Positions 10,710-18,728 of a stretch of 34,464 nt of DNA are shown piece after piece; the first letter of the stretch is position 1; each line of letters opens with the position of its first letter. Made by a program: the position numbers and the translations under genes. Under the pieces are notes generated by a model. That model was not told the DNA's origin and did no database searches. It worked only from the letters and a program-made list of their open reading frames with translations. This DNA comes from a virus, in IMG/VR virus record IMGVR_UViG_3300007735_000653, positions 1 through 34,464 of that record, one strand, 5' to 3'.

Positions 10710-10892
10710 CTATACGTGTGTGATCTCTGTCACATTAAGTTTGTTTATCCTAATAATGTTGGCAGATCCACAGGAGCACCATCCTCTATAGTCATCTAAA
10801 TTTTTCAGGGTAGTTATCTCAGTCAATGCATCACAATCAGTACATAGATACTCATACCTAGTCCAGGTCTTATCCATAGTAAGTGTTTTCAT
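10710..10892 (-). CDS. Zinc-ribbon protein
   Basis: 60 residues, MKTLTMDKTWTRYEYLCTDC..., with C17-x2-C20 and C39-x-C41, a likely zinc ribbon. AGAAGGG upstream supports ATG 10892. Met6 is an alternative. Its 3' end carries the CRP-like palindrome that may control the next unit. Function unknown. Confidence 0.65.
   Translation of the reverse strand: MKTLTMDKTWTRYEYLCTDCDALTEITTLKNLDDYRGWCSCGSANIIRINKLNVTEITHV
10719..10734. promoter_or_regulatory. CRP/GlxR-like palindrome
   Basis: TGTGATCTCTGTCACA, a perfect TGTGA-N6-TCACA site, inside the 3' end of the 10710-10892 gene and upstream of the 10680-10708 promoter. Confidence 0.65.
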
Positions 10893-13201: not shown

Positions 13202-13217
13202 TGTGATTTAGATCACA
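13202..13217. promoter_or_regulatory. CRP/GlxR-like palindrome
   Basis: TGTGATTTAGATCACA, perfect TGTGA-N6-TCACA. It is centred about 75 nt upstream of the predicted start of the 13108 gene. An overlapping dyad TCACAT-N6-ATGTGA begins at about 13190. Confidence 0.65.
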
Positions 13218-14383: not shown

Positions 14384-14399
14384 TGTGAGATACATCACA
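14384..14399. promoter_or_regulatory. CRP/GlxR-like palindrome
   Basis: TGTGAGATACATCACA, perfect TGTGA-N6-TCACA, centred about 84 nt upstream of the predicted start of the 14279 gene. Confidence 0.65.
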
Positions 14400-16403: not shown

Positions 16404-16419
16404 TGTGTTTTTAATCACA
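16404..16419. promoter_or_regulatory. CRP/GlxR-like palindrome
   Basis: TGTGTTTTTAATCACA, one mismatch to TGTGA-N6-TCACA, 10 bases from a pair of DnaA boxes. Confidence 0.5.
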
Positions 16420-16428
16420 TAATCGCCC

Positions 16429-16449
16429 TGTGGATAAACCTGTGGATAA
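16429..16449 (-). promoter_or_regulatory. Two perfect DnaA boxes
   Basis: TGTGGATAA occurs at 16429-16437 and 16441-16449, the complement of the consensus DnaA box TTATCCACA. The boxes are spaced 12 bases start to start, in the same orientation. Confidence 0.6.
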
Positions 16450-16469: not shown

Positions 16470-16497
16470 AAGCAGTTTTAAAACTTGCTTAGGTTTT
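16470..16497 (+). terminator. AAGCA/TGCTT stem-loop with T run
   Basis: AAGCA (16470-16474) and TGCTT (16486-16490) with AGTTTTAAAACT between, then AGG and six T on the plus strand. It lies just outside the 3' end of the 16506-16652 gene. Same family as 11388 and 14066. Confidence 0.5.
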
Positions 16498-16505
16498 TTA
16501 TTTAT

Positions 16506-17286: not shown

Positions 17287-17315
17287 AGTTTAACAGATTT
17301 AGCAGACATTATCAA
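17287..17315 (-). promoter_or_regulatory. Sigma70-type promoter
   Basis: Minus strand: TTGATA (17310-17315), 17-nt spacer atgtctgctaaatctgt, TAAACT (17287-17292). Sequence-related to the 12464 and 17724 promoters. Confidence 0.7.
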
Positions 17316-17325
17316 ATCCAAAATC

Positions 17326-17338
17326 GGACATTTAGGAC
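17326..17338. promoter_or_regulatory. 9-nt-spaced GGAC direct repeat
   Basis: CGGACATTTAGGAC: GGAC at 17326 and 17335, between the -35 box and the CRP-like palindrome. Confidence 0.4.
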
Positions 17339-17346
17339 ATTGGGGG

Positions 17347-17362
17347 TGTGAGATACCTCACA
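17347..17362. promoter_or_regulatory. CRP/GlxR-like palindrome
   Basis: TGTGAGATACCTCACA, perfect TGTGA-N6-TCACA, centred about 74 nt upstream of the predicted start of the 17250 gene and overlapping the stop codon of the 17358-17480 gene. Confidence 0.65.
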
Positions 17363-17792: not shown

Positions 17793-17808
17793 TGTGATCT
17801 TAACCACA
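17793..17808. promoter_or_regulatory. CRP/GlxR-like palindrome
   Basis: TGTGATCTTAACCACA, one mismatch, centred about 83 nt upstream of the predicted start of the 17686 gene. Confidence 0.5.
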
Positions 17809-17836
17809 TCGTACTTAAAGCGACACGCCGTCTGCG

Positions 17837-17857
17837 CCGAGTCAACTCGGGTTTTTT
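17837..17857 (+). terminator. CCGAG/CTCGG hairpin with T run
   Basis: CCGAG (17837-17841) and CTCGG (17846-17850) with a 4-nt loop, then G and six T on the plus strand. It is a good intrinsic terminator for antisense transcription, abutting the stop of the 17856-17981 gene. Confidence 0.6.
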
Positions 17858-17981
17858 ATTGCAATTTATTTTTATGTTTTATTTTTCTAGAATAATTTTT
17901 TTTATTTGGAATTGGTGTTGCCGCATTACTACGGCGCAATTCTTGAATACGAATAATTTTGTTTTTTATTTCTTTTAACAT
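17856..17981 (-). CDS. 41-residue basic peptide
   Basis: ATG 17981 to TAA 17856, MLKEIKNKIIRIQELRRSNA..., with about one third Lys/Arg. The charge suggests nucleic-acid binding. It follows the 17986-18087 gene by four bases. Not recognised. Confidence 0.5.
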   Translation of the reverse strand: MLKEIKNKIIRIQELRRSNAATPIPNKKNYSRKIKHKNKLQ

Positions 17982-18297: not shown

Positions 18298-18313
18298 CTT
18301 TCTTTATACTAGA

Positions 18314-18319
18314 AGTATA
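18314..18319 (-). promoter_or_regulatory. -10 box for the 18261 gene
   Basis: Minus-strand TATACT with no convincing -35. A CRP-like palindrome is centred about 76 nt upstream, so activator-dependent transcription is plausible. Confidence 0.45.
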
Positions 18320-18375
18320 ACACCTACCACTGACATTTACTGACCAGTAACCAGCACAAAACGGACATTTGGGAT

Positions 18376-18391
18376 TGTGATGTATATCATG
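18376..18391. promoter_or_regulatory. CRP-like palindrome fused to a DnaA box (copy 1)
   Basis: TGTGATGTATATCATG. Its last two bases are the first two of a perfect DnaA box, TGTGGATAA (18390-18398). Confidence 0.5.
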
Positions 18392-18416
18392 TGGATAACT
18401 TACGCTCAATTTAAGA

Positions 18417-18432
18417 TGTGATGTGTATCATG
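18417..18432. promoter_or_regulatory. CRP-like palindrome fused to a DnaA box (copy 2)
   Basis: TGTGATGTGTATCATG followed by TGTGGATAA (18431-18439). Confidence 0.5.
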
Positions 18433-18483
18433 TGGATAACTCAAAAATGCCCCGAGCCAATGTCCAATTTGCACCAATTGTCC

Positions 18484-18499
18484 TGTGGTGTATATCACT
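18484..18499. promoter_or_regulatory. CRP/GlxR-like palindrome (plus-strand promoter)
   Basis: TGTGGTGTATATCACT, two mismatches to the consensus, centred about 75 nt upstream of the predicted plus-strand start near 18567. GTCC-like words at 9-nt steps (18462, 18471, 18480) precede it. Confidence 0.45.
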
Positions 18500-18531: not shown

Positions 18532-18560
18532 TTGACTTTTGGGGTTATCTCTGCTATAAT
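18532..18560 (+). promoter_or_regulatory. Strong sigma70-type promoter, plus strand
   Basis: TTGACT (18532-18537), 17-nt spacer, TATAAT (18555-18560). It drives the 18838-19497 gene cluster through a leader of about 270 nt. Confidence 0.8.
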
Positions 18561-18589
18561 TCCATTATACAAAAAAATAAAGAAGCAGA

Positions 18590-18716
18590 CTCAATGAGCC
18601 TAGCGAATAACCCTCAACAAGAGGATGAGCCTAGCAAATAAGTGAGTCAGAGATTAGATAGCCTCAATGAGCCTACCAAATAAGCCTAGCAATAGGATGA
18701 GCGTAGCAATTAAGTG
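18590..18716 (+). repeat. ATGAGCCTAGCAAATAA-type leader repeats
   Basis: Four imperfect copies of ATGAGCCTAGCAAATAA lie at about 18594, 18634, 18667 and 18697, two followed by GTGAG. Each unit holds a start-like ATG and an in-frame or shifted TAA, so the leader could encode tiny peptides. The repeats precede a CRP-like palindrome and two hairpins. Probably a regulatory leader. Confidence 0.6.
18594..18641 (+). CDS. Possible 15-residue leader peptide
   Basis: ATG 18594 to TAA 18641 encodes MSLANNPQQEDEPSK. A GTG directly after (18643) could re-initiate a second peptide ending NEPTK. No strong ribosome site is seen (AAGAAG at some distance), so this is only a candidate. Confidence 0.25.
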   Translation: MSLANNPQQEDEPSK

Positions 18717-18728
18717 AGGTATCTCACA
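18713..18728. promoter_or_regulatory. CRP/GlxR-like palindrome in leader
   Basis: AGTGAGGTATCTCACA, one mismatch to TGTGA-N6-TCACA. It lies downstream of the 18532 promoter, where a bound protein could act as a roadblock. Confidence 0.45.

Follow-up and report, generated by a model that had tools for sequence, protein, structure and literature searches.

Analysis of a 34,464-nt stretch of viral DNA, referred to here in its entirety as the window, revealed a composite element in which a CRP/GlxR-type palindrome is fused to a DnaA box, and which occurs in two copies where the open reading frames switch from leftward to rightward. The composite element is real and strongly conserved among related phages, and is therefore very probably functional. 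On balance, it probably lies in a divergent control region for early genes, to which two proteins of the host would bind, a CRP/GlxR-type activator and DnaA.

The initial annotation had described a 25-nt unit present twice, 41 bases apart and with one difference, at the switch between gene strands; all of this was confirmed, the position from the directions of the open reading frames. Module 1 (18376-18400, + strand) consists of the palindrome TGTGATGTATATCATG (18376-18391) merged with the DnaA box TGTGGATAA (18390-18398), and module 2, its second copy (18417-18441, + strand), of a palindrome at 18417-18432 and a box at 18431-18439. The units differ by one mismatch, with a start-to-start distance of 41 bp, and in each of them the end of the palindrome merges with the box, as originally described, through an overlap of 2 nt. 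Directly after box 1 lies a spacer element, TTACGCTCAA (18400-18409, + strand), which is found in either orientation in relatives, where the commonest 10-mers at this place were TTACGCTCAA and its reverse complement TTGAGCGTAA, plus close variants. The window has four exact matches to the DnaA box TTATCCACA, each of them on the - strand (16429-16437, 16441-16449, 18390-18398, and 18431-18439), while 0.36 were expected and none of the shuffles reached four, so that the number of boxes within 2 kb is indeed far above chance. No phage record matched the region in BLASTN, and an Rfam search of the window returned a single tRNA.

On the left side of the modules, the -10 element TATACT of a leftward promoter (18314-18319, - strand) is located inside the palindrome TATACTTCTAGTATA, with conserved TATA/AGTATA columns, and module 1 is centred about 76 bp upstream of where this promoter starts. 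On the right side, a third related palindrome, TGTGGTGTATATCACT (18484-18499, + strand), precedes a rightward promoter-like sequence, TTGACT-17-TATAAT (18532-18560, + strand), and the distance from its centre to the promoter start, as measured on the sequence, is about 75 bp. The 15-bp palindrome overlapping the -10 regions (TATACTTCTAGTATA or TATAATTCCATTATA; 18305-18319, 18555-18569, and also 19566) is a possible repressor site. The modules are flanked by the GGACA-type repeat GCACAAAACGGACAT (18354-18368, + strand) on the left and its inverted counterpart ATGTCCAATTTGCACCAATTGTCC (18460-18483, + strand) on the right; GGACA repeats (GGACAAAACGGACAT and its inverse) also flank other palindromes, further occurrences being at 17324-17342 and at about 9.9 kb in L308.

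Compared to TGTGA-N6-TCACA, the fused units carry two mismatches, and the resemblance to CRP sites was stronger elsewhere in the window; the CRP-like character assigned in the initial annotation is thus borne out for the window rather more than for the quoted units. Four perfect palindromes (10719-10734, 13202-13217, 14384-14399, and 17347-17362, all + strand and in the same arm) were found where 0.07 were expected, and eight sites had at most one mismatch, compared with 2.1 expected. The perfect palindrome at 17347, TGTGAGATACCTCACA, precedes the start of the leftward promoter TTGATA-17-TAAACT (17287-17315) by 74 bp, that at 13202 is about 75 bp off a promoter start, and that at 10719 is 53 bp from the start of a promoter with TTGACA/TAAAAT. 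A CRP/GlxR-type palindrome at 17793-17808 (+ strand) is located 83 bp upstream of a leftward promoter start (TTGATT-17-TAGACT), and another with one mismatch, AGTGAGGTATCTCACA (18713-18728, + strand), lies downstream of the rightward promoter and matches the 17347 site in inverted orientation over 17 nt. The further one-mismatch palindrome TGTGTTTTTAATCACA (16404-16419, + strand), whose unit recurs in relatives, stands beside the tandem perfect DnaA boxes at 16429-16449 (- strand, 12 bp apart; TGTGGATAAACCTGTGGATAA on the + strand), in agreement with the additional boxes at 16429 and 16441 reported earlier next to a palindrome; an identical tandem is present in the cultured Streptomyces phage Faust. 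Between leftward genes at 16470-16500, the near-palindrome AAGCAGTTTTAAAACTTGCTT followed by T-runs is terminator-like and recurs in relatives, and GGCGTGTCG/CGACACGCC at 17820-17860 recurs across many intergenic gaps of the arm in relatives.

The relation between palindromes and promoters was analyzed with 260 divergent palindromes (<70% identity). A strong sigma-70-like promoter followed 119 of the 260, compared with 15-25 in shuffles, and promoter starts peaked at 53, 64, 74, and 84 bp from the palindromes, that is, whole helical turns apart, which is similar in geometry to class-I CRP activation. This phasing also holds for the sites at 17347, 17793, 13202, and 10719 of the window, and the divergent pair lies about 76 bp from each start. 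The CRP-type protein had been proposed to modulate initiation; CRP-type sites are present, but because the palindromes are helically phased upstream of sigma-70-like promoters, a role as putative activator sites is better supported. GlxR binds TGTGA-N6-TCACA, mostly as an activator (PMC4254451, PMC7999487). The same palindrome is found in GlxR/CRP promoters of Actinobacteria (PMC4254451, PMC7999487), and here it is helically spaced upstream of sigma-70-like promoters; unlike in those promoters, it occurs in a phage, with several copies in each early arm, and is joined to DnaA boxes.

The word TTATCCACA was observed 139 times in 52 phage arms, where 3.1 occurrences were expected (45-fold). The DnaA box is the 9-mer TTWTNCACA, with tolerance at positions 3 and 5. 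Outside palindromes, the clearly enriched one-base variants were TTTTCCACA and TTATACACA (5-fold each), both changed at positions tolerated by DnaA, and the only other clear variant, TTAACCACA, lies inside the palindrome TGTGATCTTAACCACA. Enrichment and variant tolerance thus support the boxes as candidate host DnaA sites. Pairs of box and palindrome at most 80 bp apart numbered 127, against 17 expected. DnaA boxes were also located near promoters more often than by chance, at varied and broad distances, unlike those between palindromes and promoters, and therefore the data do not indicate that DnaA contacts promoters at a fixed position.

Relatives were found via a gene 88-like protein (PF17338), which gave 80 loci in viral contigs; as an unconditioned set, 47 non-redundant loci, each with 5 kb or more of upstream sequence, were picked without reference to the motif. 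At least one DnaA box and at least one perfect palindrome were present in the arm of all 47, and the paired modules, which the initial annotation had suggested looking for in relatives, were kept in 27 of them; where present, the second copy was 41 or 42 bp away, with no other value. Searching the viral collection for the composite by itself yielded at least 119 stretches, of which 95 also encode homologues of window proteins, including a second clade (clade B) in which as many as about four DnaA-type boxes fall within about 90 bp. The number of boxes per phage record was 2-12 (1 in one record). In an alignment of 65 phages, box 1 was intact in 64, a conservation that is partly circular because the set was anchored on the module. 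Some relatives have a far-right cluster of DnaA boxes lacking palindromes (17728-17780 in L049; similar in L043-L084), which is absent from the window and whose boxes sit in promoter spacers (TTGACA-TGTGGATAAC). In the 53% GC viral contig L185, the composite adjoins a dense run of DnaA-type boxes.

A relative of about 110 kb encodes a DnaE-type PolIII alpha, a DnaB helicase, a primase, RecA, and SSB. Profile searches of 12 phage records, some of which may be fragments, detected no DnaA or Crp domain, and the reading that either protein is phage-encoded was set aside within that scope. The candidate hosts were three complete genomes of Actinobacteria, about 1.2 Mb long and with 39-41% GC, as in Nanopelagicales; small low-GC Actinobacteria are possible hosts, judging from size, GC, and shared sequence only. 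In the candidate hosts, the TTATCCACA box is clustered at dnaA, the boxes of this region are 10 bp apart, and a 20-nt stretch upstream of dnaA, CCACAGCCTGTGGATAACTT, is identical at 13 phage loci. Their CRP is of the GlxR type, its nearest PDB chains being actinobacterial CRP/GlxR, with which it has the recognition-helix stretch QLVGASRETVNKALADFA in common. Perfect TGTGAN6TCACA sites numbered zero in the three low-GC genomes and one-mismatch sites were at about control level; therefore, either there is no evident host regulon built on this motif, or the hosts are other organisms. The exact tandem-box pattern was also searched in genomes and set aside, as it gave 67 scattered matches, none of them titled Nanopelagicales.

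Further comparisons were made with cultured Streptomyces phages. The Stanwilliamsviridae, probable relatives that include the presumed virulent BE-cluster phages (PMC10690885), share PolIII alpha, 55% identical over its full length, and genes adjacent to it. A conserved 1.5-kb non-coding gap contained TGTGGATAA boxes in 13 of the 13 Stanwilliamsviridae looked at, mostly arranged in tandem at a distance of 12 bp. Of these phages, 11 have a third box in the gap, 252-256 bp further downstream, and 8 have a perfect palindrome, TGTGACGCACGTCACA (TGTGACGTACGTCACA in one phage). This gap (Faust, Gilson, Annadreamy, and others) thus has the same tandem boxes, a third box about 253 bp on and the palindrome, but the nearest box and palindrome are 212-225 bp apart and unfused; the papers searched contained no report of its function. 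A highly conserved non-coding stretch, GCAATGTTACTTCACAGTATGTGAGAAAAGCTCTGT, follows the boxes in Streptomyces phages (28640-28690 in L310, and relatives), and Rfam searches of two Streptomyces phage stretches returned tRNAs only, GCAATGTTACTTCACAGTATGTGAGAAAAGCTCTGT having no match there. Riptide encodes a DUF932 protein with 55% identity and similar neighbours, and in the corresponding gap it lacks both boxes and palindromes, the GGACA-type repeat ATGTCCGTTTTGTCC being the only one of these elements there.

The sites, their spacing, their conservation, and their phasing to promoters are read from the sequence, and a mechanism for the divergent control region can be proposed on this basis. 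Palindromes predicted to bind the host CRP/GlxR-type activator lie upstream of sigma-70-like promoters firing leftward and rightward, and two of them, at the junction, are each fused to a DnaA box that host DnaA would bind. Control of transcription by a CRP/GlxR-type protein, together with binding of DnaA, is well supported. We infer that GlxR would activate these promoters, and that binding of DnaA would make the region responsive to the replication state of the host. Bound DnaA may additionally assist in loading DnaB, which the phage encodes itself, at this region or close to it, in which case the same stretch would be the replication start.

The initial annotation had gone further, proposing an origin that uses host DnaA with CRP modulation; the boxes are DnaA-like and conserved, phage DnaA and Crp were not found in the 12 records, the candidate hosts have the box at dnaA and a GlxR-type CRP, and an origin function is no more than plausible. 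That the region would be primarily a phage replication origin, where host DnaA binds, opens the DNA and loads phage DnaB while CRP/GlxR shapes the DNA or times initiation, is possible, though rather doubtful. The phage replisome genes without a detected DnaA, the likeness of the tandem boxes 12 bp apart to the host dnaA-region boxes 10 bp apart, the long conserved non-coding gap in which cultured relatives keep their boxes and the density of DnaA-type boxes in clade B (up to four within about 90 bp) are consistent with it. However, each site has one or two boxes, the window sites are scattered over about 2 kb, the AT rise beside the tandem boxes is small (about 6%) with no clear unwinding element, and the palindromes are phased to promoters. 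GC skew, put forward as a check for an origin, followed gene strand in the window and in relatives of about 110 kb, and was dropped as origin evidence because gene strand accounts for it.

It is very unlikely that the boxes act as a datA-like decoy, titrating host DnaA and thereby stopping host initiation or putting it out of step during infection: high-affinity consensus boxes at several dispersed sites on a multicopy genome would suit such a role, but 2-12 boxes per record (1 in one) are few relative to the DnaA pool of the cell, and titration needs neither a fixed fusion to CRP palindromes nor an exact 41/42-bp spacing. Hardly more probable is a phage-encoded regulator binding these words, with a convergent resemblance to DnaA and CRP sites. 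In its favour, many phage-specific repeats lie in these gaps (GGACA repeats, GGCGTGTCG, TTACGCTCAA) and the candidate hosts are without such palindromes, whereas the variant tolerance fits DnaA, 20 nt are identical to host DNA upstream of dnaA, the same boxes occur in phages of another host genus, and the class-I-like spacing is typical of CRP proteins.

Among known systems, the lambda origin is similar in that phage promoters close to it are bound by DnaA of the host, with transcription and initiation linked (pR/pO; PMC3985674). Lambda is, however, an unrelated phage with its own initiator, O, and iterons, and without a CRP-DnaA composite. The P1 oriR is an iteron/DnaA-box plasmid origin, with consensus DnaA boxes beside short direct repeats in non-coding DNA. 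The arrangement described here likewise combines consensus boxes with neighbouring short direct repeats, but no RepA-type initiator was recognised, and the GGACA repeats are short and present at other promoters too.

To our knowledge, few phages rely on host DnaA, and a limited search of papers found no report of a phage element in which a CRP-type site and a DnaA box are combined at a fixed distance. Recurrence of the element across a large phage group suggests that these phages read two host proteins and time early transcription, perhaps also DNA replication. It is conceivable, though we put this forward tentatively, that in a widespread group of large actinobacterial phages a host cAMP-receptor site and a replication-initiator site are fused in a rigid composite (two copies, 41-42 bp apart, with a flippable TTACGCTCAA between them), through which host nutritional state and DnaA level would jointly set early transcription and replication initiation. 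If real, the element would represent a possible origin or switch in a large group of freshwater phages, and the cultured Streptomyces phages, which have these boxes too, would allow it to be tested.
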